Below are positions 4,094 to 52,038 of a stretch of DNA of 64,000 nucleotides, piece after piece; the first letter of the stretch is position 1, and each line of letters opens with the position of its first letter. Source of the stretch: Chamaelirium japonicum. Its lineage: Eukaryota; Streptophyta; Magnoliopsida; Liliales; Melanthiaceae. A program made the position numbers and the translations under genes. The notes under the pieces are model-generated. The model ran no database searches and had not been told where the DNA came from. It worked only from the letters and a program-made list of their open reading frames with translations. The DNA is taken from the NCBI GenBank assembly GCA_947650365.1, contig OX393557.1, forward strand, positions 3,706,237 to 3,770,236. The letters run 5' to 3'.

Positions 4094-4216
4094 ATAATGC
4101 TATAATGCGGCATGCGGTAAGTGCGGCACCGCACCGCAGCCGTCTGATGCACCGCTGCGTGCATCGATCAGACGGCTGCGGTGCAGTGCCGCACATACCG
4201 CATTATAGCATGCCCC
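4094..4216. mobile_element. Foldback element A, about 120 bp, TA-flanked
   Basis: A hairpin-forming palindrome. GCTATAATGCGG at the left end pairs with CCGCATTATAGC at the right, and CAGCCGTCTGAT pairs with ATCAGACGGCTG near the centre. It sits directly between TA runs. It shares most of its sequence with element D at 5491-5699, so the two form one MITE family. Confidence 0.7.
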
Positions 4217-4232
4217 CTATATATATATATAT

Positions 4233-4898
4233 GGGGACGGGGAGCCTGGACCTCAGGTGCAGCGTCCTCGCTGCACCGGGCTCGGCATAGAAGCCACGTG
4301 TCGGCTGCACCTGAAATCGGATCGGATTCCGGATTAAATCCCGCCCAAAAATCCCGCAAATAGCCTCAGCCGTCCGATCACCTCTATCCAACGGATCGGA
4401 TTCCACCGGACCGGATCGGGCAGCTGTTACTGTGGCGGCCACAGTAACAGCGCTGTTTTGGTCCGGCCGAATCCTGTCCGTTGGATCGGATCAATCGGGC
4501 GGCTGAAATCAAGTTCGCGGTTACTGTAGCGGCTACAGTAACCGCGATAATGATTTCAGCCGTCCGATCGCCACGATCGGACGGATGAAATCATTATCGC
4601 GGTTACTGTAGCCGCTACAGTAACCGCGAACTTGATTTCAGCCGCCCGATTGATCCGATCCAATGGACAGGATTCGGCCGGACCAAAACAGCGCTGTTAC
4701 TGTGGCCGCCACAGTAACAGATGCCCGATCCGGTCCGGTGGAATCCGATCCGTTGGATCGAGGCGATCGAGCGGATGAGGCTATTTGCGGGATTTAATAT
4801 GTAGAATCTGATCCGATTCCGGTGCAGATGGACACATGGCGCGCGCAGGAGGTTCCGGTGCAGCATTTACGCTGCACCTGAGGTCCAGGCTCCCCATC

Positions 4899-4901
<3 letters not shown>
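4233..4901. mobile_element. Foldback element B, 669-bp near-perfect palindrome in TA repeat
   Basis: Two arms of about 330 bp meet near 4571 with almost no loop. The end GGGGACGGGGAGCCTGGACC at 4233 is mirrored at 4901 with one change. Inside each arm are smaller palindromes such as GTTACTGTGGC/GCCACAGTAAC and GGTTACTGTAGC/GCTACAGTAACC. TA runs flank both sides. It has no coding capacity, so it is a non-autonomous foldback element. Its terminal 47 bases match those of element E at 37 positions. Confidence 0.8.
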
Positions 4902-5815
<914 letters not shown>

Positions 5816-6824
5816 GCGCGGGGAAGCTGGACCTGAGGTCCAGCCTCAATGCTGCACCGGAACTGTGATGTTGCCACGTGCCCCAAGTGCCCCAGATGAT
5901 CATCCACCAGCTGGACCTAATAACCCCCAAAATCAGCCTCGGCCCCTCTCTCTCTAACCCAGATCTCGCTCTCCCCTCCTCCTCACTCCCGCCCTCTGCA
6001 CCGCCAAGATCAAGCCGGGCGCTCGCCCGGCCAACGCGCCGGGGCCCCGATCTCGCTCTCCCCTCCTCCTCACTCCCGCCCTCTCCACCGCCAAGATCAA
6101 GCCGGGCCGGGCCCTCGCCCTCTTCACCGCGCCGGCCAAGAACAAGCTCCCCACCCCCGCCCTCTTCACCGCGTCGGCCAAGATCGGACCGGGCCCCCGC
6201 CCTCTTCACCGCGCCGGCCAAGATCGGACCGGGCCCCCGCCATCTTCACCGCTCCGGCCAAGATCGGACCGGGCCACCGCCATCTTCACTGCTCCGGCCA
6301 AGATCGGACCGGGCCACCTCCATCTTCACCGCTCCGGCCAAGATCGGACCTCAGCCCCCGCCATCTTCACCGCTCCGGCCAAGATCGGACCGGGCCACCG
6401 CCATCTCACCGCTCCGGCCAAGAACTGACCGGGCCCCCGCCCTCTTCACCGCTCCGGCCACGAACAAGCCGGCCGGCCCACGCCCTCTTCACCGCTCCGA
6501 TAAGAAATGAATCAAATTTTTTTTGGGTCTGTAATCCTAAAAACTATTGCTACAATCACACTATATTTGAGAATTACATGAACATCTACGGCTCCAAGAA
6601 CATCGATGTCGACTCCATCACCATCACCGTCCCCGCCGACAGCCCTAACACCGATGGCATCCACATCAGCGGCTCGAGCAACGTCACCATCACCAACTCC
6701 ACCATCGGCACCGGCGACGACTGCATCTCCATCGGGCCGAGCACCGCCGGCGTCACGATCACCAACGTGCAGTGCGGCCCCGGGCACGGCATCAGCATCG
6801 GCAGCCTCGGCAAGAACATAGTGA
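5816..6824 (+). repeat. Left inverted arm of element E
   Basis: Pairs with 13020-13902 on the opposite strand with only scattered differences. It ends at the GTGA after the polygalacturonase GHG motif; beyond it the two sides diverge abruptly. Near the tip is the palindrome CTGGACCTGAGGTCCAG. Confidence 0.85.
6095..6505. repeat. 40-bp GC-rich minisatellite, about 10 units (left arm)
   Basis: GCCAAGATCGGACCGGG recurs at 40-base steps (6177, 6217, 6257, 6297, 6337, then 6378, 6417 and 6457 with single-base shifts). Because 40 is not a multiple of three, the array cycles through reading frames yet stays free of stops over long stretches, giving proline/arginine/serine-rich open frames. The protein-like frame at 5878-6510 is explained by this repeat and is not called as a gene. 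Confidence 0.85.
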
Positions 6825-7306
6825 GGATCAAGACGTGGCAGTCGTCGCCGGTGGCCACCTCGGCGTCCAACTTCACCTACGAGGACATAGTGATGGACAA
6901 TGTGAAGAACCCCATCATCATTGATCAGAAGTACTGCCCCTACAAATCCTGTAGTGAATCGGTACGTAAGCTATGAAACTAGCTAATGTATGTTACATCA
7001 AACCCGGCCGGCCTAGCTAGCCAGCTAATGATCTTGATTGGTCTTAATTAATTGGATCATGCATGTTTTCTCTCTTTGTGGCAGGCTCCATCTAGGGTTA
7101 AGATTAGCCATATTAAGTTCCAAAACATCAGAGGCACCTCGGCCTCGCCGGTTGCAGTCAGTCTGTTGTGCAGCGACGCATCGCCGTGCGATGACGTCCA
7201 CCTCAGCGACGTCAACATAGAGTACACCGGCGGGAAGGCTGCGGCTTCGTGTGTCAATGTGAAGGGCAGTTCCAACGGCAATGTGAAGCCACCCTCCTGC
7301 ATTTGA
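6563..7306 (+). pseudogene. Polygalacturonase (GH28) gene fragment, left copy
   Basis: Two joined exons of a plant polygalacturonase, the enzyme that hydrolyses alpha-1,4 bonds of cell-wall pectin. The first exon reads from about 6563 to 6961 and the second from 7085 to the stop at 7304-7306. The intron between them begins GTACGT and ends GCAG, phase 0. Four GH28 hallmarks are present: [27 protein letters not shown] and VRIKTW. They are followed by a typical C-terminal half with IRGTSASPVAV and CSDASPCDDV. Missing are the N-terminal signal peptide and roughly the first half, plus about 25 residues normally found between GHGISIGSLGK and RIKTW. It starts in the minisatellite with no credible start exon. 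I read it as a fragment captured by element E, not a working enzyme. Confidence 0.8.
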
Positions 7307-7646
7307 TCATCAGCCATGCACCTATTAATTGTATAGCATTATATTCATCTCCCACATTGATCACTCTGTTGTGGAGTATACTCTGCATTTGGATGTCTAA
7401 CAATTTGGGATTTTTTTTCACCCCAAGTAATAAAGATGGTACTTTCCTTTTTTATAATTCGGATTTAGAATCTTGCATTTTTTTTTTTTATAAAATGGAT
7501 GGTGGTCATTACAAAATAACATGTAGGTCTTTCCAAACTAGGGAAGAGAATAGAGAGATTTTAGATGACCAATACCCTAGCCTTCAACTCTATTTAGTCG
7601 AGGTTCCTTTGCGAGCCAAGGAGCAGCACCATTGGCATGGTGCGTA
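7307..7646. other. Downstream flank of the polygalacturonase fragment
   Basis: Probably 3' flanking sequence carried with the captured gene. Open frames overlap here (to 7647) but resemble nothing known. Homopolymer T runs occur at 7410 and 7478. Confidence 0.4.
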
Positions 7647-7725
7647 GGGGTGGCAATGGTTCGTGCCGGGTCGGGTTCGTGTCCTGTCTAGTTTCGGGTC
7701 GTGTCCAAAACCCCTAGATCCGGAC
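7647..7725. mobile_element. Truncated hAT-like MITE end
   Basis: TAGGGGTGGCAATGG followed by GGGTCGGGTTCGTGTC matches, inverted, the right end of the complete hAT-like MITE at 43361-43835. The likeness runs to CCAAAACCCCTAGA and then stops. No second end or target duplication seen. Confidence 0.6.
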
Positions 7726-9698
7726 CCGACATGTCTTGCTGAGCCATGTGTCTGACTGACTTTTGATACCCGGGATCAGATTGTAAAGGGGGGCTATTCC
7801 ATTACACTTGAATTGGACTCATTTCGTCGGAATTCCGATTCCCATGAAAAGAACACAGTGTATGGTCCTTTTTTATATAGCCTTTCTGAGATGTTTTGCC
7901 CCATCGAGCGGTGTTATATGCCTCTGCATGTCCCCCCACCAGTTGAGTACAGTAAGCAAAACAAAGTTTTGAGACTTAGCTCCATGCAGCAGCACATCAG
8001 GCATTGAAGCAGAATTTTTTTTTATCAAGAGGTAGAAAAGACTTTGATATTATACATTCCAATATACAATTAAAACCTACACCAAATGATAGGGAGTTCT
8101 AAGTTTTTTCAACACTTGGTCTGAATATCTAGAAGTTACAGCTTCCACTTCCCAATCAAAGAACTAAGAGGAAATCATTCCAATTATAATTCACCTTCGG
8201 ACCAAACCGGAAACACCGACTGAACTCGTGGGCCGAAAATTGGCGTCCAATTCAACAGAATATCAGCTGCTCATACCAAAACATAAACCAAAAATAAATC
8301 GATACAACCAAATGAAAGAAAAAAAAGAAGTATACATTACAAATGATATATTCCTCAACGAGGATCGTCAACATCTGATAAGTACACAAATAGTTCCATC
8401 AGCAGTACCACATTACTAAGTAGCGCGGGGCGGTAACTTAATAATCGAAAAGCCAGATGTGACTGCAAGGGGAAAAAAATTTGAACTATATATCGAGGAC
8501 TTTAAACGCAAACCAACAGCTACTTCTTTATGTTCATCCACCAATTTCCTTGAGCTGGAAACAAATGGCGCTAGGTCCAGTTCATCGCTCTCCGGATAAC
8601 AGTGTGCTGCTCTGTCTCTCTTCTCAGAATTCAAATCTTGCTCAACAGGCTCTTGCACCGAATTAGAATCATCAGAAGTAGAAAGGATTTGAGATTTGGA
8701 TATCCATGTGTGAAACTCCATCTACAGCAAAAGGTGGCTTGGTGTAGTCGAAACAACAACAGGTCTTCGGTTGGGAGCACCCCATGACTACAGGGTACCA
8801 AACCAAATGGATGCACAAGCAGGTGGTTTTAGTTTCAACTGCAACCAAATGGATGCACAAGGAGGTTGTAGTTCCAACTTCCAACTGCAATAGTTGGACT
8901 ACAAATATGCCAGCCAAACACAGCCCATTGTGTGCCATCAGAATGAAATAACTTCTAAAAAATGACTAACCAAATTTCATTGAACCAATATTTTAATGCC
9001 ATCCCACATTCCACACACACACAAAAACAGCCTAAATATAAGATATTCTATTTCAGAAGTATGTGATCAAATACAACAAAACTGCTAACTCTGCATCACC
9101 CATGTAATGACAGGATTAGGGTAATCCAACCTTACTCTTTTACTTTATTGGCCACAACCACCACTTCTCTTCTAAGCCAAAAGCTGTTCAAAAAAACAGA
9201 AGGAGTGGGCAAATAAAAGAAGTTAACAAAAGAAACATAGAAAATTTCGAATTTGCTTGCTTCAAATACAGTAGTGAAACTATGTATTGTAATTCGAATT
9301 TGGTCAATGTTATTCGATCACCTGAATTATGTGAAGAACAGTTTGTGATTCAAATATGAAGATAGTGCCTGTTGAGCAATGCTATGGAGCACATATACGG
9401 GATTCCCATGCAGGCTCAAGATGGGTATGGAACCTAGTACAGGCATGGACTCCACACATGTCTTGTGTCTGCAAGGGAATTATGAAGAAAATAGTCATCA
9501 GATTTATGAAGTAAACCTCAAGAAGTAGAAGCCCAACAGTTAATAATGTAAAAAAAGTAATAAATTTCAGAGTCTTCACTAGAAACACCAGATGCAGTAG
9601 ATAATAATATAAACAATAATTAATAATGCAAAAAAGACATTAAGTGAAGAGCAGAATAAAATGGTAAAATATAATGAAAATTTTTACCTAACTAGCTA
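7726..9698. other. Gene-free interior of element E
   Basis: No recognisable coding sequence. Near 8798-8878 there is a tandem pair of about 40 bp (ACCAAATGGATGCACAAG twice). The stretch from 9000 to 9690 is AT-rich and may hold the 3' flank of the minus-strand transposase gene that ends at 9699. Confidence 0.45.
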
Positions 9699-11975
9699 TT
9701 ATTTTTTCTCGGGACATGTTGTTGTATAATGACCTCTCTTCTTGCAATTTCCACACATCCTTTGCTTTGCTTTCTCTTGACTGACCTCCAAGCTTGAGCG
9801 AATTCGTGATGTATTTTTTGGTCTACCCTTGGTGATGCAAGGATCTGGATCAAGTATTCGCAATTGAACATGTTCGGATATAGAGGCACATCCTTCTATT
9901 TGACTTAAGTTGTCCTCATACACGCTCTTTGTAACTTCAGGACATAAAGATATTGCATCAAGTTTATCAACAAGATCACTTAGAACCGGCATGGCAACTT
10001 TAAAATGTTGCGGAGATTGAATACCCATGTCAATACACTGCAGAGCTGCTTCTCTAATGCACCAAATTTGAATTGGTGAAACACAATTAGAATCATCGAT
10101 TTCTTCACTCATTGCACGTACACAACCATACCTTGCTCCGATTGTCCACCTTTGAAGGATGTATTTAGGTGGAATTTGCATCACATTTGTATGTTGAAAC
10201 ACCTTTAGCACATGAGCACACAATAATCCTTCACACTCAAATTTCTTACAAGTACAAAATGCATCATTGTTTGTTCCATCAATACTCACCGTATATCGTG
10301 TATGATTTGACTCAAACATGCGCACTTCATACACATTGACATGCCCTTCTTGTGAAATTTTTATTGCAATATATGCCTCCTTCTTTCTTAATTCTTCCTG
10401 AAATAACTCAAACACTTTCCTAGTGTAGATTCTTCCCGCTTATATTTCCATTGGATTTTTAGACCAAAGCGCTGGCTTTGTGTACAAAGTGACATGATCC
10501 TCGTGGTTTTCATGGTCACGCCGGTGCATTAATGCCAAATCATATTGCCTTACAAACTCATTCAATGGTGTCTTTGCACTTACGTATCCATCAAAAAACG
10601 AGTTCATACTTTCACTACACTGTGTCGTAGTCATCCCTGCAAAGAAGACATCCTTTAGGTAGCATGGAATCCACTGTTTTCGAACCTCGTACATATATTG
10701 CAACCAATTATTTCCTTCTAGTTTGTAGGTTTTGATTAAATGATCCCAGCTCGCCTCAAACTCTTCAATCGATTCACTGTACTTGCACCTATTGTAATCA
10801 CATTCAAAGCTTTCTTGCTGTAATTTCAATTGGGTCAAATGTTTGATCTCATTTTGCCCTATATGCCACATACAAAACCGATGTATGGTGTTAGGAAAAA
10901 TTTTCTGAATAGCTTTTGCCATTTCATTGCATTGATCCGTAATGATTGAAATAGGTCTTTTACCCCACATCGCCTTCAACCAAGTCTCAAACAACCATAC
11001 AAATGTATTTTCAGTTTCGTCGGCCAATAATGCACAACCGAACAAGATAGATTGCCTATGGTGGTTGACCCCCGTGAATGGAGCAAATGGCATTGAAAAA
11101 CTATTAGTTCTATAAGTTGTGTCAAATACAACAACATCTCCGAATTGTTGATAGGACATTCTCGATCTACTGTCCACCCAAAATATACTCCTCATTCTAT
11201 ACTCTTCATCAATTTCAACTTCATAAAAAAATCCATCATCTTTGACACGTTTGTCCATAAAGCCCCTCACAATATTGATACATTCATGTCCTATATTATT
11301 CTTACGAATCTTTTTTAGGTAACTTCGAGTGTCCTGTGGGGTAACTATCATATTTTTGTTCATATCCAATGTGGTTAAAGTTGATGCAATCTGTGAGGGC
11401 CTCATAGTCTGATGGAAGCTGTGAATTAACGACTTCGTTGCAGCTGACATTCTTTTATGAGAGCGTATCTTTGCAGTCTTCGACGGTGTAACCAAAGCAT
11501 GCGTGTGCTCTTCGATAAAATATTTTACAGTCCATACATTAGCTTCTGTCAAACTAATCCCCATCATTGCTTTGCAACCTTCTCTAATCTCTCGCCGTGG
11601 ATTTAGTATGTGTTCCATTCGTCATTTGTCTTTTCCTTTAAATCCTTCTTTTGCACATAAAAACCTTCGAGCTGTAATGCATTTTCTTGGACCGGAGCGA
11701 TAAATCTTGCCCTTTCGTACACCGAAGCCTGTTCTTTTAGCATACATATTATAGAACTGATATGCATCTTCCTCTGATTTAAATGTCATACCGATGTATG
11801 GATTGCATTGATCGGATTCAAAGTCGATATGTGCACTCCCATCCCCTTCATCAATTTCTTCATCTGCATCCATCCATACATTGTCACCCTCTTCATTACG
11901 TAGATCCAAGCCAATACTTTCTTCAATTACATCCGCATCATTTATACAATTCTCCATATCCATCTGACTATCCAT
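9699..11975 (-). pseudogene. FAR1/FHY3-type MULE transposase gene with two in-frame stops
   Basis: One frame of 759 codons carries all parts of a FAR1-family protein. It has an acidic N terminus, then a FAR1 DNA-binding domain (about residues 62-165, starting GMTFKSEEDAYQFYNMY). The MULE transposase core follows, with acidic residues at about D285 (VVFDTTYRTN), D347 (ITDQ) and E455 (SESMNSFF) and a CMWHI motif. A SWIM zinc finger (CTC...CAH, about 574-588) and a C-terminal CCHC knuckle (CGNCKKRGH) complete it. Start ATG at 11975 is supported by an in-frame stop two codons upstream. The frame is broken only by TGA at codon 118 (11622-11624) and TAA at codon 512 (10440-10442); each is one C-to-T change from CGA and CAA. 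FAR1 proteins are either Mutator-like transposases or domesticated light-signalling factors. The position inside inverted arms favours a transposase of element E; a host FAR1-related gene is the alternative. Confidence 0.8.
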
Positions 11976-13019
11976 TAATTAACTTCTGCAAAATGAAATA
12001 CAAAACACAATGAGCATATGACAAGAAAACATAATAGTGTCGAAAAAATAGCATGGTCATTAAGATGTAGGACTAAACCCAACAAATTGTAGCACTCTCC
12101 CTCATGAAGGGAATCGTTTTGTAATCCTTAAGGTTCTGACATAAAATATGGATATAATACTCTATATTGTCACCCAATATAGATTTCTTTGCTTATTCAT
12201 ATACTGTTATGATTTCTAGCGCACAATTTATTGATGCAAGGAGAGAGAAGCTAGTTAAGGTAATGAAGTTGTACATTATCAGATACTATGTTACTTGAGT
12301 TTTGTGCTTCGTGATGAGTTATTACTGATTATAAGTACTCTTGCATGTACTTACTGATTGACTTACTACATTTCACCTATACACCTTTTATAGGTTTGTT
12401 GAGGGGCCTTTTCTTCATCATTGAGATGTTGTTCGTCCTTTTATTATGACTTATGTGAAGATTAGGGGTAGGAAATTGTTGTTGCATATCAGTTATGTTG
12501 GGAAACCTTCTTGTTTTGTTTTTATCATATACACATCACATGGCCATTAGCTTCATTAAGGGTTACAGAGGTTCCATTGCAGACTTCTAACCATGGTGGA
12601 GAATGCATCCTGATAGAATCCTTCTTCATGTCTACTCTTAGATGACACTTCCCTTGTTGCTGCTCGCTTTATACCACCCAGCTGTCTTATGGCCCTACTT
12701 AAAATGTGGCAGAAACAAACATGGCTATCAGTCTAGTTCATGATGCAGAAGGTATCACTATCCTCGAGTAGTGAGTTCTTATTTAGTAATTTGTGTGAAA
12801 AATATATGGATATTTACATGATGCTTTCTACATCATGCCACTTTATTTAATCTTCGAGGAAGAATCTCCTATACATGCAGTTTCGTGTATTGATGGATTT
12901 GTGTTATATATTACTCCTGTCATTCCAATCTTGTAGTATATCATAATTTCCCCTTACTAATATTTAATTTATTTTGTAGAATTCTGAAACTCCTGGAACC
13001 ATGATCAGCATTTTCATGA
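11976..13019. other. Gene-free interior of element E, upstream of the transposase gene
   Basis: Should contain the transposase promoter, but no clear TATA box can be singled out in this AT-rich DNA. An acceptor-like tract (TTTATTTTGTAG, about 12968-12980) lies just before the right arm. The segment 12540-12780 has a coding-like composition but no frame I recognise. Confidence 0.4.
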
Positions 13020-13300
13020 TCACTATGTTCTTGCCGAGGCTGCCGACGCTGATGCCGTGCCCGGGGCCGCACTGCACGTTGGTGATCGTGACGCCGGCGG
13101 TGCTCGGCCCGATGGAGATGCAGTCGTCGCCGGTGCCGATGGTGGAGTTGGTGATGGTGACGTTGCTCGAGCCGCTGATGTGGATGCCGTCGGTGTTAGG
13201 GCTGTCGGTGGGGGCGGTGATGGTGATGGAGTCGACATCGATGTTCTTGGAACCGTAGATGTTCATGTAATTCTCAAATATAGTGTGATTGTAGCAATAG
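13020..13300 (-). pseudogene. Polygalacturonase fragment, right copy
   Basis: Minus-strand copy of the first part of the left fragment. It has the [17 protein letters not shown] and GPGHGIS motifs and the same unusual junction GSLGKNIV. It then leaves the polygalacturonase sequence at the inner edge of the arm. Both copies share the junction, so the internal deletion of the captured gene came before the arms were duplicated. Not functional. Confidence 0.8.
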
Positions 13301-13339
13301 TTTTTAGGATTACAGACCCAAAAAAAATTTTGATTCATT

Positions 13340-13735
13340 TCTTACCGGAGCGGTGAAGAGGGCGTGGGTCGGCCGGCTTGTTCGTGGCCGGAGCGGTGAA
13401 GAGGGCGGGGGCCCGGTCAGTTCTTGGCCGGAACGGTGAGATGGCGGTGGCCCGGTCCGATCTTGGCCGGAGCGGTGAAGATGGCGGGGGCTGAGGTCCG
13501 ATCTTGGCCGGAGCGGTGAAGATGGCGGTGGCCCGGTCCGATCTTGGCCGGAGCGGTGAAGATGGCGGGGGCCCGGTCCGATCTTGGCCGGCGCGGTGAA
13601 GAGGGCGGGGGCCCGGTCCGATCTTGGCCGGCGCGGTGAAGAGGGCGGGGGTGGGGAGCTTGTTCTTGGCCGGCGCGGTGAAGAGGGCGAGGGCCCGGCC
13701 CGGCTTGATCTTGGCGGTGGAGAGGGCGGGAGTGA
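13340..13735. repeat. 40-bp GC-rich minisatellite (right arm)
   Basis: Inverted copy of the left-arm array: TCTTGGCCGG recurs at 40-base steps. Overlapping open frames of 172 and 176 codons on the minus strand are by-products of the array. Confidence 0.85.
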
Positions 13736-13902
13736 GGAGGAGGGGAGAGCGAGATCTGGGTTGGAGAGAGAGGGGTCGGGGCTGATTTTGGGGGTTATTA
13801 GGTCCAGCTGGTGGATGATCATCTGGGGCACTTGGGGCACGTGGCAACATCACAGTTGCGGTGCAGCATTGAGGCTGGACCTCAGGTCCAGCTTCCCCGC
13901 GC

Positions 13903-14120
13903 TTATAGCATTATAGCATTATAGCATTATAGCATTTCTCTCTCGGAATCCAATCCCATTATCCCACCAAAGTTGGTAAGTGTAACGTGCATGGGCCATG
14001 GCTATGATGGCTGACTCTTAGAATCCAATCCGGCAATCCCACCAAAGTTGGTAAATGTAACAGACACTTGTGCATGGCTGACACCTGTGTAAATTTTTTT
14101 TTTTTTGGTGCATCATTGCC
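13903..14120. repeat. TATAGCAT run and an imperfect tandem pair
   Basis: TTATAGCA is repeated about four times at 13903-13930, then TTTCTCTCTC. Two related units of about 85 bp follow (about 13947 and 14021), sharing CCACCAAAGTTGGTAA and a GCATGG-containing end. Confidence 0.6.
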
Positions 14121-18036: not shown

Positions 18037-18545
18037 GAGATAAAGATTGTTGATGAATTGGGAGTTTCTGTTTAAAAGGGTTACGAAAGGATTCAGTTGC
18101 GTGCTAGAAAGGACTGCTTGTTCTTTTGTTGGTCTTTTAATTCTTTGGGTATGTGCTGCGGTTTGCTTCATGCTAAAACTACTTTGGATATTAGAGCAAA
18201 ATTTTGGTAAAGTAAACATCAGTGATTCGATATAGGATAAATATATGAGGTTGGTTTTCGTATCCTCTATCATCTTTATTTGCAACTCTAAAGGCATCCT
18301 TGGAGAGAACGGCTCATTCAATTATGAAAATTGATGGAGTACAGGATTTGGGTGAGCTTTGACCGTTAGGTGACTGGTGTCTTCTCCCCTCTTTCATCGC
18401 TCCCGTTCTTTCGAATAAGCGAGGTCTCGGATTCATCTATTTGGCTTGTCTTTCATCAGAGCATGCCATGGTTGGTACTTGGTGTAGTAGGTAGAAGGTT
18501 GGAAGGGAAGATTTCTTAGGATGAGAGGAATCAAGTAAAATCTTG
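18037..18545 (+). other. Probable 5' UTR / leader of the O-fucosyltransferase gene
   Basis: Begins after a plausible 3' splice site (TTGCAG, 18031-18036) and runs to the coding start. It contains short upstream open frames. The exon assignment rests only on the splice-like site and position. Confidence 0.35.
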
Positions 18546-19880
18546 ATGGGTTTCTCAATTTGTAAATTTCGGAAGCTCACAAGCTGCCACATGAATTCAA
18601 TAGTCTGCAAATGCTTTATCTTGGTTTTCATCATTCTTGCATTCAGGACTGTGATGCTTCCCCCCTTTCCTGGTTTCAGTTGGTTTCAACAGAGAGGCTC
18701 TTATTGGGTACCTACCTCTAGTGCTGCTAATTTGCCACAGTCTGTTAGAAAAGACAAGTTTTTGGAGGTTCCACAAATTGTTTGGGGATTAAACAATCAG
18801 AAAATCGCATTTGCGAGGGCTTGCTTGACTGCAAGGTTGTTGAATCGGACTCTGCTAATGCCTAGCTTGAGCGCTTCTTTGTTTTACAAAGAGATCGAAT
18901 TGTTGGAACCCATTTCATTTGAGAAGGTTTTCCAGTTTGAAAGGTTCAATTCCCTGTGTCATGGGTTTGTTCGATTGGGTCAGTTTTCTGATCTTTTGAA
19001 CCAAACCAGGCCATTTGAGCTGCAAAAGGGAAGCGGGAGGAAATGGACTAAAGAGAAAGATTTGGATCAGTTGAAGAAAAGCAAAGAAGGCCCAACTGAT
19101 CAGTTTGAAGTCGTTCGAATTATCGGAAAGAATCCCTTCCTTTGGCACGACCATTGGCCTGTTATGGACTATGCGAAGATATTCGAATGTCTGGTACTGG
19201 TTGATGAGATAGAGAATGAGGCAACCAAAGTTATAGCCAAGATTAGAGAAACTGGAACCGAGGAGAGAAGCAAAACTGATGTCCTCAAGAAGAAAATCAA
19301 CTCATCCGGCTCATCAAACTACTCTGTGCCTTATATAGCTGTTCACATGAGGATTGAGAAAGACTGGATGATCCATTGTCTGAAGATGGAGCAGAAATCG
19401 CACATCAATCAAATCTGCAGCAGCAAGGGAGAGATCATGGAACGGGTTGCTAACATTGCTGGCCTAAAGTGGCCAATCGTTGTTTATCTTGCGGTCGCTG
19501 ACAGCCTTTTAGAAGATGGTTCGATATCGAGCGGATGGAAAGAAGGTCTGCTTGCTTTCGAGAAAAAGAGATTGGGGGTTTGGGACATCTACAAGAAGTA
19601 CCCTTATCTCGTACAGTCAGCAATCGACTATGAGGTGTGCGCAAGAGCGGATGTCTTTGTCGGCAACAGTTTTTCTACATTTTCGAGCCTTATAGTGCTC
19701 ATGAGGACACGGAAGATGATTAGAATGGGCATCACAAGGTCATGCGGGGTGGACGCAGGCTTTGCATCATATGCATACAATATCTTAGGTGAATTCGGGG
19801 GACCTAAGAGATGGATGACTGATATGTCGGCTCCGAGCCTTCACAGCATAAGTTATGGGACTAATAATATCTCATGCTAA
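18546..19880 (+). CDS. O-fucosyltransferase family protein (single coding exon)
   Basis: A 444-residue protein of the plant O-fucosyltransferase family (GDP-fucose-dependent glycosyltransferases, usually Golgi type II membrane proteins). Residues about 19-40 form one hydrophobic anchor after a short basic N terminus. The family signature PQIVWGLNNQKIAFARACL then LTARLLNRTLLMPSLSASLF follows. Further on come the nucleotide-sugar region PYIAVHMRIEKDWM and, near the C terminus, SAIDYEVCARADVFVGNSFS. The ATG at 18546 is preferred: it opens directly before the basic-plus-anchor segment. The frame is uninterrupted to the TAA at 19878-19880, and the length suits the family. The acceptor substrate cannot be told from sequence. 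A truncated copy of its 3' part lies at 27885-27978. Confidence 0.88.
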   Translation: MGFSICKFRKLTSCHMNSIVCKCFILVFIILAFRTVMLPPFPGFSWFQQRGSYWVPTSSAANLPQSVRKDKFLEVPQIVWGLNNQKIAFARACLTARLLNRTLLMPSLSASLFYKEIELLEPISFEKVFQFERFNSLCHGFVRLGQFSDLLNQTRPFELQKGSGRKWTKEKDLDQLKKSKEGPTDQFEVVRIIGKNPFLWHDHWPVMDYAKIFECLVLVDEIENEATKVIAKIRETGTEERSKTDVLKKKINSSGSSNYSVPYIAVHMRIEKDWMIHCLKMEQKSHINQICSSKGEIMERVANIAGLKWPIVVYLAVADSLLEDGSISSGWKEGLLAFEKKRLGVWDIYKKYPYLVQSAIDYEVCARADVFVGNSFSTFSSLIVLMRTRKMIRMGITRSCGVDAGFASYAYNILGEFGGPKRWMTDMSAPSLHSISYGTNNISC

Positions 19881-27978: not shown

Positions 27979-28478
27979 NNNNNNNNNNNNNNNNNNNNNN
28001 NNNNNNNNNNNNNNNNNNNNNNNNNNNNNNNNNNNNNNNNNNNNNNNNNNNNNNNNNNNNNNNNNNNNNNNNNNNNNNNNNNNNNNNNNNNNNNNNNNNN
28101 NNNNNNNNNNNNNNNNNNNNNNNNNNNNNNNNNNNNNNNNNNNNNNNNNNNNNNNNNNNNNNNNNNNNNNNNNNNNNNNNNNNNNNNNNNNNNNNNNNNN
28201 NNNNNNNNNNNNNNNNNNNNNNNNNNNNNNNNNNNNNNNNNNNNNNNNNNNNNNNNNNNNNNNNNNNNNNNNNNNNNNNNNNNNNNNNNNNNNNNNNNNN
28301 NNNNNNNNNNNNNNNNNNNNNNNNNNNNNNNNNNNNNNNNNNNNNNNNNNNNNNNNNNNNNNNNNNNNNNNNNNNNNNNNNNNNNNNNNNNNNNNNNNNN
28401 NNNNNNNNNNNNNNNNNNNNNNNNNNNNNNNNNNNNNNNNNNNNNNNNNNNNNNNNNNNNNNNNNNNNNNNNNNNNNN
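27979..28478. other. Assembly gap (500 N)
   Basis: Exactly 500 unknown bases, a conventional placeholder; true size unknown. Any open frame through it is an artefact. Confidence 0.99.
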
Positions 28479-45546: not shown

Positions 45547-46700
45547 TGTTGGGTGTGTGTTTTAAAACCACACAAAGGGATGGGCTTTTAGTCCCATATC
45601 GGTAAGGGGAAAAATCCCCTACCAACTTAAATAGGATTCCCCACTTCCCCCCACTAGTCATCACACTAGAGGAGGGGCTCCACTAGCCCACACACGCGCG
45701 CGCGTGTGTGTGCCGTGCCGAGCCGAGCCGGGCCGGGCCGGGCTTGGGCTTGGGCATGGGCATGGGCTGGGCGGCGCGTGTGTGCGCGCCCGCGGACCCG
45801 GACACGATAGCACCTCCGAAATGGGCTGGTCCGCACCTGCCCTATTTTTGCTTTTTGCTCTTAAGTCCTCCACTATTTATTATTTACCATTTGGGACACT
45901 AGCCGTTACGCGAGAAGCGTTGCATGCTAGCCGTTACGTACAGGCTCGCTGCGAGCTGTAACGTGCGAGGTTAATGGGCTTAATCGCAGCCCATTAACCG
46001 CTCCCCTCTTTCAGCCTCCCATTAACAGCCCGAGGCCTATATAAGGCCCGGTGCAGCTATGGGATTGACACAGTCCGAATTTCGGAATTCATCCCTGCTT
46101 ACTGTCTCTCTCTCTCTCCCATTCTCTCGGTCGTGGTGTTGTTGTGCTGCCCCTTTGCTCCGAAGAGACTCCCTCTCTCGGACCAAAGCTTTGCTGCGGT
46201 GCTGCCTCCCGGCCTCGAGAAGTCGTCATCGAGTCGCTGGGTTCCTGAAAGTCTACGAGGTTCGCAAAGCCTTCTTGGAGTCGTGCCGACGAGAAGGAGG
46301 TCGCCTGACCGGGGTCGCCGTATCTCCGAGAACAATTGCCACGAGACCCGCACGAGGGGGGCAATAAGATTCTTGGGACAGTGCCTAGCACGCTTCGACC
46401 ACAGGCCAGAGTTTTCTAAGTCTTCTTTTGTCCTGATATTAGATCTAAAATAATATACTTGCATCTAATAGAGAAATATAAATAATTAGATATATTTTAG
46501 ATAGATTGTATCTCTCTTTTAGAAAAGTTCGGCAAGGTGAATGACGGTTCCATAGAACCCGCTCTGCCTTGGCAAACAATTTCTAAAAGAAATTTGTGAC
46601 TTGTCCTTGTTTGCAAAAATAACATTTGCTAATCAATTTTAATTTTAATAATTTGATTAAATCCTAAATTTGCTAGTTTAGAACGATTAGATTTCCATCA
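45547..46700 (+). repeat. Copia-2 5' LTR
   Basis: Starts TGTTGGGTGTGTG and ends TTTCCATCA. Contains a Z-DNA-prone palindrome (45689-45710), a Myb-like CCGTTA pair, an inverted repeat (45970-45998) and a TATA box. Confidence 0.92.
45970..46044 (+). promoter_or_regulatory. Copia-2 LTR core promoter
   Basis: TATATAA at 46038-46044 in CCTATATAAGGCCCGG context is the only strong TATA box in the LTR. Upstream, GTTAATGGGCT (45970-45980) and AGCCCATTAAC (45988-45998) form an 11-bp perfect inverted repeat with a 7-base loop. CCGTTACG words near 45902 and 45931 resemble Myb sites. The same arrangement occurs in the 3' LTR. Confidence 0.6.
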
Positions 46701-49700
46701 ATCCAAGAATCTTATTGTAATTTAATCGTTCATAAGTTACTTTCTTTGCAACGTGCTCACTAAGTTAGCCTACGTGATCATCTATTAGTCTTTATTTCGT
46801 GCTACCTATTAGTTGCTACTAATTACAAAACTATTTTCTACAAAAGCAAAAGCATATATAGATTATAGAAAAGACTAAAAGTCGTCATTGAAATATTCCA
46901 CTACCTACGGTGTCGAGAAAGGCTTGTCAAACCGGCATTAAATTGCCCAAGGTAGCTTGGTATTTGAGCGAGCCTAGTGCTCCACCTCCTACCTGGAGCC
47001 CATCTGGCCGTTAGGATTTGGAAGTTTCATTTGGACTTCTAAAAGTCGAATCTATCTAGGTGTACTTTAAAATTGACAAAACTTGTTTTTCAATCCACAG
47101 ATTTCAACTCCTAATTTTGGTCCGAAATGGCCTCACCAAACCGTGAAACCCTTAGTGCTAAACCCGAGAAGTTTGACGGGTCTAACTTCAAGAGGTGGCA
47201 AAACCAGATGCGATTCTGGCTAACCACACTTGGATTACTGTCAGCCATAGGTGAAACCGCACCAGGAGTATCCAACGGGTCTAGCCAAACTCGTCGCACC
47301 CGAGCCTCCACTTCACAACCTGAACCTGAATCCACTTCTGGCATTCCCACTAGGACCCCAGAAGAAATCAACTACCATGGCCTTCATAGGATCCTAGGGG
47401 CCTTATCTGATAGATTATACGATATCTATTATACCATTCAAAACCCTAAGGACCTATGGGATACCCTAGAGCGTAAGTATGGCCTAGATGATGCTGGAGT
47501 AAAACGCTTCAAAGCGTCTGACTTCAACAGCTTCAAAATGGTTGACTCCAAACCCATGAATGATCAGATTCATGAGTTTGAGAACCTAGTCCAACATCTG
47601 AAGACTAATGGTTCCACCCTTGATGAAACCTTCCAGATAGCCTGTCTTATAGATAAACTACCTGCTTCTTGGTCTGAATTCTCTAAGCACCTAAGTCATA
47701 CCCAAGGTGACCTAACCCTAACTCAAGTTCTAAACTCTATTAGAATTGAGGAGCAACATAGGCTCAGGGAAAAGGGATCCTCTGAATCCAAACCCAAGGT
47801 CAACAACATAGAGAGTCAACCTTCTAAGCCATTCCAAACAACCTAAGAAATCTTTTAAAACCATCGATCGAGACTCCCATATACTTGAATTAATTCACAG
47901 CGATGTCTGTGATTCTGGGAGAACCTCGAGAGGTGGCAATAGATATTTTGTAACGTTCATAGATGACGCTTCAAAATATTGCCACCTATACCTAATTAAA
48001 ACTAAGGATGAAGTACTCAGTAAATTTAAAATTTACAGAGCTCTGGTTGAGAACCAATTAGACGAAACCATTAAGATCCTTAGGTCAGACCGAGGAGGGG
48101 AGTATACCTCAAATGAGTTAAGTGAGTACTGTGATGACTATGGAATACTCCATGAAGTCACAGCTCCTTACACTCCCCAATCCAACGGTGTAGCGGAAAG
48201 GAAAAACAGAACCCTAATGAACATGGTTAATTCCATGTTACTAAGCTCTGGAGCGCCAGAGAACTTGTGGGGGGAAGCCCTAATGACGGCTTGTTTTATC
48301 CTTAACCGCATTCCGTTCAAACATAATGACTTGACCCCATACGAAGTATGGAAACATAGAAAACCTAACTTAGAATACCTAAAAGTGTGGGGGTGCCTAG
48401 CTAAGGTAAAAATCCCCGATAACAAAAGGAAGAAGATAGGACCTAAGACTGTAGATGCCATCTTTATTGGCTACGCTTCAGACAGTAACGCTAATCGTTT
48501 TTTAGTGTTTAACTCTGAAATAAGCGAAATAGCCAATAACACCATAATCGAAGCAAGAGATGCTTCTTACTTCGAAAATATCTTCCCTTATAAGACTAGG
48601 ATCAACACTAGGATTAATACCAATAACCAGGCCTCCAGTTCTAATCAGGTGACTCAGATCGAACCTGAAGTCCAATTAGAACCTGAAGACCAGACTGAAC
48701 CGGTAACCCAAACCGAACCTAGGAGGAGTAAACGTGCCCGTGTAGAGAAAGTCTTTGATGACTTCTATGCACTTATGGTGGAGAACTCTCCCTCCACCTA
48801 TACAGATGCAATGAAGTCCATAGACTCACCTTTTTGGAAAGAAGCCATAGATAACGAGATCCAATCTATTCTTCAAAACCATACCTGGGAACTCACCAAT
48901 TTACCTCCTGGTTGTAAAACCATAGGATGTAAATGGGTGTTTAAGAAAAAGCTTAGACCCGACGGTACCATAGATAAATTTAAGGCAAGACTTGTAGCCA
49001 AAGGCCTTACCCAAAAACCTGGGGTAGACTACTTTGATGTCTACTCACCTGTCGCTAGGATAACCACGATTAGGATCCTCATCGCCTTAGCTTCAATCTA
49101 TAAGCTAGTCATACATCAAATGGATGTTAAGACTGCTTTCTTGAATGGCGATCTGAATGAGGAAATATACATGGACCAACCCGAGGGATTTACTGCACCT
49201 GGACAAGAGGGAAAGGTGTGTAAGTTAAATCGATCCCTCTATGGACTTAAACAAGCCCCAAAACAATGGCACATGAAATTCGATGAAGTTATCTTATCCT
49301 ATGGATTTGATATCAATTCAACGGATGAATGTGTATACCATAAAGTAGATGGTAATAATATTGTCATTTTATGTTTGTATGTTGACGATATTCTGATATT
49401 CGGTTCAAACATACAAATCATAAATGATATCAAACAGTTTTTGTCTCAAAACTTTGACATGAAAGATTTAGGACAAGCCGACGTTATCTTGAACACTAAG
49501 ATCATTAGGAAGAACAATGGTTTAGTGTTATCCCAATCCCACTATGTCGAGAAAATCCTTAGGAAATTTTACGATCCCGATTGCCAACCTGTATCCACAC
49601 CATATGATCCAAATACCCATCTAACAAAGAATACTGGACTTCCTAGACTACAGAGCGAGTATGCTCAAATCATAGGATCGCTAGGTTTTCTAGCAAACTA

Positions 49701-50884
49701 TACTCGACCCGATATCGCTTACGCGGTAAATAGACTTAGTCGTTATACGTCTAACCCAAATTTGTCCCATTGGAATGCGTTAGAAAGAATTTTTAGATAT
49801 CTTAAGGGAACCATATCATACGGTCTCCACTATAGTGGATATCCAGCTGTATTAGAGGGATACTCTGATGCTAACTGGATTAGTGACTCAATAGATATTA
49901 AGTCCACTACCGGATATGTATTCCTACTAGGAGGTGGAGCCATATCTTGGAAATCCACCAAACAAACTGTTATAGCTAGGAGTACTATGGAATCAGAAAT
50001 GATAGCGCTAGATACCACTAGCACAGAAGCAGAATGGCTTCGAGATCTCCTATATGAGATCCCATTGATAGAAAAGCCTTTACCGGCTATATCTATCCAT
50101 TGTGATTGTCGATCAGCTATTGATAAATGTAATCAAGAAAACGCTGATGTAAAAATAAATCGACATCTGAAAGTGAGACATAGATCTCTCAGATATAAGA
50201 TGAAAAATCAAATAATTGCCCTAGACTTTGTTAGATCCGAAAAGAATTTGGCGGATCATCTAACTAAGGGCTTATCTAGGACAGTGGTCTTAGAATCGTC
50301 GAGGGGGATGGGATTAAGCCCATAAGAAAAATCACCGCAGTGGGAACCCAACCTCACGGAGGTTCAATGGGTAGAAACAAACTGTAGTAGTGATTGAAAA
50401 TGAGGAGCACTGAATAATGCTCCCGTCCCTATGACGTCAGTGCTTATTAAAAGCAAGGGGTAGGATGAGTGTAAAACTCTTAATAAGTCCAAGACCCATG
50501 AGGCGGGGTGTCGCCTTGCTCACACCCCTATTAGGACTTACCTATATGTATGTCGTTGTGAGGCCGCAACTCTGGGACCAGGGCTGCTCCCTAGAAACAT
50601 ACAAGAAAAGATATCTGCGCAAGGCCATTAATAGCGCAACCCGCTTAGAACCATCGAAAACTGTACTACGTGTACTACTTGTAGAAACCCGATAAATGAG
50701 GCTGGTTCAAGGCGTAGTCCACCAAGTCCTCACGGATGTATACAACTGTACTAAGTGGAGGTTCAAACCGGAAGGTACCTACACCTACTGCGTAGTATAA
50801 GGAATCCAGCAAAGTCCTTTTACTTTATATTTTGAATTTTTTAAATTATTTAATATTTAGTGGTTTTAAACACATGTGGGGGAT

Positions 50885-52038
50885 TGTTGGGTGTGTGTTT
50901 TAAAACCACACAAAGGGATGGGCTTTTAGTCCCATATCGGTAAGGGGAAAAATCCCCTACCAACTTAAATAGGATTCCCCACTTCCCCCCACTAGTCATC
51001 ACACTAGAGGAGGGGCTCCACTAGCCCACACACGCGCGCGCGTGTGTGTGCCGTGCCGAGCCGAGCCGGGCCGGGCCGGGCTTGGGCTTGGGCATGGGCA
51101 TGGGCTGGGCGGCGCGTGTGTGCGCGCCCGCGGACCCGGACACGATAGCACCTCCGAAATGGGCTGGTCCGCACCTGCCCTATTTTTGCTTTTTGCTCTT
51201 AAGTCCTCCACTATTTATTATTTACCATTTGGGACACTAGCCGTTACGCGAGAAGCGTTGCATGCTAGCCGTTACGTACAGGCTCGCTGCGAGCTGTAAC
51301 GTGCGAGGTTAATGGGCTTAATCGCAGCCCATTAACCGCTCCCCTCTTTCAGCCTCCCATTAACAGCCCGAGGCCTATATAAGGCCCGGTGCAGCTATGG
51401 GATTGACACAGTCCGAATTTCGGAATTCATCCCTGCTTACTGTCTCTCTCTCTCTCCCATTCTCTCGGTCGTGGTGTTGTTGTGCTGCCCCTTTGCTCCG
51501 AAGAGACTCCCTCTCTCGGACCAAAGCTTTGCTGCGGTGCTGCCTCCCGGCCTCGAGAAGTCGTCATCGAGTCGCTGGGTTCCTGAAAGTCTACGAGGTT
51601 CGCAAAGCCTTCTTGGAGTCGTGCCGACGAGAAGGAGGTCGCCTGACCGGGGTCGCCGTATCTCCGAGAACAATTGCCACGAGACCCGCACGAGGGGGGC
51701 AATAAGATTCTTGGGACAGTGCCTAGCACGCTTCGACCACAGGCCAGAGTTTTCTAAGTCTTCTTTTGTCCTGATATTAGATCTAAAATAATATACTTGC
51801 ATCTAATAGAGAAATATAAATAATTAGATATATTTTAGATAGATTGTATCTCTCTTTTAGAAAAGTTCGGCAAGGTGAATGACGGTTCCATAGAACCCGC
51901 TCTGCCTTGGCAAACAATTTCTAAAAGAAATTTGTGACTTGTCCTTGTTTGCAAAAATAACATTTGCTAATCAATTTTAATTTTAATAATTTGATTAAAT
52001 CCTAAATTTGCTAGTTTAGAACGATTAGATTTCCATCA
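50885..52038 (+). repeat. Copia-2 3' LTR
   Basis: Follows the purine-rich tract GTGGGGGAT and appears identical to the 5' LTR. The TATA box and palindromes are repeated here, so it could drive transcription outward into 52 kb. Confidence 0.92.

Follow-up and report, generated by a model that had tools for sequence, protein, structure and literature searches.

How does a fragment of a host gene come to lie within both terminal inverted repeats (TIRs) of a transposable element that also carries a transposase? We address this question with a 64,000-nucleotide stretch of Chamaelirium japonicum DNA (hereafter the window; contig OX393557.1, here called C9, positions 3706237-3770236, in a genome of 1.52 Gb), where an element of this kind is framed by a pair of long inverted arms. 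We propose that a Mutator-like element (MULE) which targets TA microsatellites captured two host fragments, and that the right end of the window copy was later rebuilt from the left arm, extending the TIR. We put the probability of this reading at roughly 0.8.

The arms, at 5816-6824 and 13020-13902, are about 96% identical. A repeat search resolves them as four pieces of 210-334 nt that are 97-99% complementary and 6.2-7.7 kb apart, and the main block found by blastn is 674 bp at 96.4%. At the tip the match reaches 5814 on the left, and the two outermost bases of the right tip are AA where the left has GG. Both arms contain a minisatellite of about 40 bp (10.5 and 9.6 copies) and a GH28 piece of a polygalacturonase (PG) gene (PF00295; E 1.1e-40 for the left reading, E 3.7e-28 in the right arm). 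The left PG reading runs on past the end of the arm and reaches a stop at 7306 (E 7e-15), and the right-side reading stops where the right arm stops. An earlier note made from the sequence alone had described the inverted repeat, the GH28 motifs and minisatellite common to both arms and a FAR1/MULE transposase between them. All of these are confirmed here, and the note's further suggestion that captured PG lies inside the terminal inverted repeat holds for both TIRs of the window copy. When 7200-13020 was searched for further inverted repeats the longest was 34 nt at 76%, so the arms are the element's sole long inverted repeats. A separate MULE nested between the arms is rejected, as that interval holds no second long inverted pair.

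The interior codes, on the minus strand from 11978 to 9699, for FAR1 (PF03101), MULE (PF10551, E 4.3e-31) and SWIM (PF04434) domains. Harbinger models gave no match to the transposase at E 0.01, and MULE models do match. In the window copy, in-frame stops at codons 119 and 513 of 759 divide the transposase frame into three pieces. A search of the genome with this transposase (best 40 of 159 candidates scored) lists 45 matches, 14 of which, the window included, cover all 2280 bases at 91% or better. These amount to perhaps 13 independent copies, because those on C13 (L046, C13:205000-214000) and C2 (L047, C2:62569000-62578000) match each other at 99.8% over 8.4 kb and do not differ in their flanking stretches, which probably reflects either the double assembly of one locus or a recent duplication. 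We examined the frames of 13 transposase stretches in 12 sources, some of them partial, and a single open frame of 759 aa is present in two. One is that of L034 (C10:9.1 Mb), which carries PG and whose left arm is split, with about 20 kb between the pieces. The other belongs to L043 (C10:64105358-64111349), where two full-length copies lie in opposite orientation about 1.4 kb apart.

A genome search with the left arm, one of the checks that the earlier note had recommended, returned 48 matches (best 40 of 103 candidates scored). On several chromosomes, many of those listed form inverted pairs with a spacing of about 5-9 kb, and family copies having both inverted ends and transposase were found. 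The element has the long terminal inverted repeats of a MULE and, as in Pack-MULEs, it carries a host gene fragment, here of PG, together with a second fragment, most likely from contig C373. Pack-MULEs lack a transposase, however, and here one is present, broken in the window copy and open in relatives. The element is a member of a TA-microsatellite-targeting, FAR1-type MULE family with minisatellite-bearing TIRs of about 0.5-0.75 kb. At C1:69540480-69551784 (L035/L036) a right-type end with the C373 fragment and a partial transposase precedes another family element, forming a composite, and at one end of L039 (390-461) the TIR tip is tandemly duplicated, recalling the multi-TIR MULEs of PMC3310237.

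Comparison among copies separates what belongs to the family from what was captured. Four PG-free copies (L038, L039, L046 and L047, the last two of which may count as one locus) keep minisatellite-bearing TIR pieces, much of the 7734-12066 interior and the transposase. In these copies 6576-7733 and 12067-13012 are unmatched, with different sequence in their place. The left-type TIR of 5814-6575 is also found in PG-free copies, most of it at C1:69.5 Mb and parts of it in others. Since PG-free copies retain the minisatellite, it is part of the family's TIR, and not of the captured gene.

The fragment beside the right TIR has a restricted distribution. Seven candidates for 12067-13008 yielded seven occurrences: in the elements on C9, C118, C12 and C10, at two ends at C1:69.5 Mb, and at C373:151.1-152.1 kb, where it is 97% identical. 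At C373 the fragment is contiguous with a further stretch of about 70 bp, AAAGTAATTTTAGAG..., and the sequence beyond its two ends there (about 930 and 206 bases) has no match in the window or in the family loci. C373 is therefore the likely source, and we hold that the right-side fragment of about 1 kb most likely came from there. By eye, its joints have short common homology, GAT on the inner side and AA(A) at the TIR.

The PG fragment points to a second capture, on the left. Among the candidates scored in a PG search of the genome (the best 40 of 1321, so that a copy may have been overlooked), the nearest PG genes are at C6:73.54 and 73.13 Mb, with coding parts about 96-98% identical and the 3' flank 91-93%; close PG paralogues lie at C6:73.1-73.5 Mb. 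At the left joint, CATG (6577-6580) is common to the PG-free family arm on C1 and to the gene. Further in, 66 bp of PG coding sequence are replaced by 3 bp at 6818-6820, leaving a scar, AACATAGTGA, common to the C9, C12 and C10 elements. Because these 66 bp are coding in the gene and the intron-like GT-AG stretch that follows (about 6962-7084) was kept, the loss is a deletion and not the loss of an intron; on the same grounds, an origin of the PG piece from spliced RNA is rejected. Among the copies listed in this search, only the window copy has full PG in both arms. In C12 and C10 the PG stands on the left side alone, and C118 has a 63-bp version; in this respect the reading of the earlier note is not supported.

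The right arm is where the window copy departs from its relatives. The right ends of the C12 and C10 copies and both C1:69.5-Mb ends read TIR, then AAAGTAATTTTAGAG..., then captured fragment, with one-base variants in C1, and the inner part of the C118 right end reads likewise. The window copy alone among these lacks the C373-contiguous stretch, so its right arm is the derived state. A symmetric ancestor with PG in both arms, from which the C12, C10 and C1 copies lost PG on the right, is conceivable in that PG stands on the left in all three full PG-bearing copies listed. However, their PG-less right ends carry the very joint sequence that at C373 runs without a break into the fragment, and loss of PG would not recreate that joint in C12, C10 and the two C1 ends. 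The joint largely refutes an ancestral two-armed state, which we consider very improbable.

The order of the right arm in the window copy is left TIR tail, CATG joint, PG through the scar, ...AGTGA, one extra base, and then CATGAAAATG, which lies within the captured fragment, the outermost part of the fragment being gone. Its PG piece bears the marks of an element: two substitutions, the CATG joint to a left-type tail and the AACATAGTGA scar, all found in the C9, C12 and C10 elements and in neither of the two PG genes aligned. The scar and substitutions indicate that the right-arm PG was copied from an element and not taken anew from the gene. We also considered that each arm captured PG from the gene independently. 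MULEs often carry gene fragments, as the Pack-MULEs of PMC3310237 do, and the PG endpoint differs in C118. For C9 this is refuted by the same TIR-PG joint, the same scar and the same two element-only substitutions in both arms, and we give the possibility almost no credence. Both the order of events and the copying of left-type sequence into the right arm of the window copy can be read from the sequence.

Which left arm served as the template is less certain. The left and right arms of C9 have in common the change CAGCTGGACC in the tip block, absent from all seven other ends, and in the tail both have a 1-bp deletion and a C-to-G change, each absent from the four others. These three private changes suggest that the copying probably took place within the same element, with the right arm probably derived from C9's own left arm. 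The alternative is ectopic conversion, with the left arm of a different element as the template for the right arm. It would explain why, in the PG and tail blocks, the C9 arms are no closer to each other than to C12 and C10. It does not account for the three private changes, one in the tip block and two in the tail block, and we regard it as unlikely.

Several observations weigh against the history that we prefer. In the PG block the C9 arms differ at 5/241 positions, as much as or more than either differs from C12 and C10 (3-5/241). In the tail block they differ at 3/185, compared with 3-4/184-185 to other copies, and in the tip block each is the other's closest match, though by a small margin (4/148 versus 5-8/147-149). 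These distances imply that the copying was not recent, and they leave the three common changes to carry the argument for the same element. The right arm is also without the 87-bp tandem duplication at 5958-6044, so that a change in the repeats must be invoked, and no repair intermediate is visible. Finally, a target site duplication (8-11 bp for MULEs) is not readable, the flanks being (TA)n on the left and (TTATAGCA)n on the right. A 15-bp flank repeat, TAGCATTTCTCTCTC, seen by eye near 5693 and 13928, was rejected as such a duplication because it does not adjoin the element ends.

The inverted arms could in principle be an artefact of assembly or inversion. TA-rich repeats are difficult to assemble, and a single gap of 500 N lies elsewhere in the window (27979-28478). 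Against this, the arms differ by about 3.5%, their inner joints differ, and the same plan recurs in copies on several chromosomes. We consider an artefact scarcely credible.

A second, shorter event of this kind is recorded in C118. In the stretch read, this copy is itself a fragment that keeps only 39 bases of the transposase start, present twice. Its right arm consists of TIR, left-type tail, 63 bp of PG, a filler of about 14 nt (GTCTGATGCAAGCG), the minisatellite of the old right TIR and the captured fragment. The filler resembles a miniature inverted-repeat transposable element (MITE) of the window (GTCTGATGCA); the similar sequence there is GCCGTCTGATGCACGCGC, carried by the MITE at 5538 and by window units related to it. 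The C118 tip and tail variants are common with C10 and include none of the three C9 changes, so that the event looks independent of that in C9. The right arm looks like the pattern expected from interrupted copying with template switches.

We propose the following history for the element. Two host fragments were captured, probably during DNA repair: about 1 kb next to the right TIR came first, followed by about 1.16 kb of a PG gene next to the left one. The right end of the window copy, broken or left incompletely repaired, would later have taken the left arm as template by way of the common TIR. Synthesis would have run from the tip inward through the TIR and about 250 bp into PG, and rejoining to the element interior would have deleted about 70 bp. 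A capture that was one-sided thereby became part of an extended TIR. As the trigger we infer a transposase-made break repaired by strand invasion. We tentatively extend this to a broader idea, possible although we would not favor it at present, that arm-to-arm copying during one-end repair is a general engine of MULE TIR growth which swallows captured genes, and that this family has been caught in the act at least twice, in full in C9 and partially in C118 with a switch into MITE-like sequence, a single genome holding close relatives of the donor gene together with the one-sided and the two-sided stage.

The family's preference for TA microsatellites is apparent at its ends. In the window and 17 loci, (TA)4 or longer adjoins 20 of 24 family tips, or 26 of 30 if six MITE-like relatives (78-87% identity) are counted, and the background in the remainder of the window is 42 of 7553 windows of 30 bases. 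The four tips without it are the right end of the window copy, one end each of L035 and L044, and the inner tandem tip of L039. To the left of the element, 4097-5740 consists of palindromic MITE-like units parted by (TA)n and not nested in one another (about 4097-4217, 4233-4901, 4980-5382 and 5492-5700). Judged from repeats and sequence, 4097-5813 together with the element forms a non-nested, microsatellite-flanked chain like the SaTar arrays. The MITE at 4233-4901 gave 102 matching rows on both strands (best 40 of 2020 candidates scored). It resembles the element at the tip only (65-84% over 41-139 bp), and the outcome that would have spoken against a single element, each arm recurring as a separate small element, was not seen.

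The flanks themselves are segmentally duplicated on C9 about 142/135 kb away: 3200-4060 matches 3850995-3851852 at 98%, and 13940-14480 matches 3855553-3856089 at 96%. The duplicate is without the element and has 3.7 kb of its own sequence in that position, so that no clean empty site is readable at C9:3.851-3.856 Mb. It holds a counterpart of the array's first unit (93%) and a further unit of that MITE type (88%), and neither the 4233-4901 MITE nor the element has a match in the 4.0 kb of the duplicate that were read. Because the duplicate has these units but not the rest of the array, that rest probably postdates the flank duplication, having been built up as in the SaTar arrays of guayule and rice.

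Two further features of the window lie apart from the element. Copia-like readings at 45998-51791 stand between the DNA-identical stretches 45998-46453 and 51336-51791, which are probably the long terminal repeats of a young insertion. The run of 500 N noted above breaks a reading that resembles, by eye, part of the protein at 18525-19880.

Table 1. Coordinates of the element, its parts and its immediate flanks (positions in the window).
Feature	Position	Strand	Basis
Left arm, an extended TIR made up of tip, minisatellite, left-type tail and PG piece (6576-6824)	5814..6824	+	repeat search, blastn, copy comparison
Right arm, an extended TIR of left-type sequence with PG, meets captured fragment at 13020; outermost two bases altered	13020..13902	-	
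Left-type TIR of the family itself, with tip, ~40-bp minisatellite and tail	5814..6575	+	copy comparison
Captured 3' part of PG (GH28) gene: last intron-like stretch, stop codon (7306), 3' flank	6576..7733	+	
FAR1/MULE/SWIM transposase reading frame, two in-frame stops in window copy	9699..11978	-	
First captured fragment, most likely C373:151.1-152.1 kb; window copy without its outermost ~70 bp	12067..13019	.	
(TA)n microsatellite at left end; family's target preference	5741..5813	.	
(TTATAGCA)n at right end, in place of usual (TA)n	13903..13936	.	
Fold-back MITE, flanked by (TA)n, tip related to element's	4233..4901	.	

Several known systems have parts of this architecture, and we compare them here through the available portions of the papers cited. 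In plan, the element resembles AutoMuTAnT of Medicago truncatula (PMC4486113). Like our family, MuTAnT and AutoMuTAnT are MULEs with a (TA)n preference and long foldback TIRs, the tips are G-rich in both (GGGG there, GGG here), and a transposase-bearing element is accompanied by short relatives. AutoMuTAnT, however, is 4.9 kb with a five-exon open reading frame, whereas ours is about 8 kb with two captured fragments and a TIR minisatellite; that portion of the paper reports no capture in AutoMuTAnT. The SaTar arrays of guayule and rice (PMC5907723) are likewise non-nested, microsatellite-flanked chains of MULE type, as at 4097-5813, but SaTars are small and non-autonomous.

Captured sequence within terminal repeats has also been seen before. 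Turmoil-1 of C. elegans (PMC2572040) is transposase-bearing and has two captured gene pieces, coding fragments, in its terminal repeats of about 760 bp. It differs from our element in being an animal transposon of the Harbinger superfamily, and in that the route of the fragments into both repeats is not reconstructed there. Closer at hand, the Pack-MULEs and MULEs with multiple or extended TIRs of PMC3310237 (which cites Hanada 2009 for extended TIRs) have plastic TIRs and acquired sequence in extended TIRs. That work concerns tandem TIRs, whereas ours grew, as we read it, by copying the other arm, and our family still encodes transposase. For Pack-TIRs of metazoans, the FoSTeST model (PMC8277862) proposes microhomology-guided template switching for capture, but these are animal elements and arm-to-arm copying is not described in the portion available. 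Captures inside terminal repeats are not dealt with in the available portion of PMC13317346, and a literature search with polygalacturonase among its terms found nothing.

Given the extended MULE TIRs with acquired sequence (PMC3310237) and Turmoil-1 (PMC2572040), the suggestion that such an element might be undescribed is not borne out. The general phenomenon is already known, and the value of this case is its unusually clear before-and-after record. The mechanism by which extended MULE TIRs acquire sequence is, according to PMC3310237, yet to be understood. Here likely donors, one-sided copies and two-sided copies are found in one genome, making order, direction, short joints and scars directly readable, and to the systems above this adds a transposase-encoding, TA-targeting family whose fold-back relatives form microsatellite arrays.

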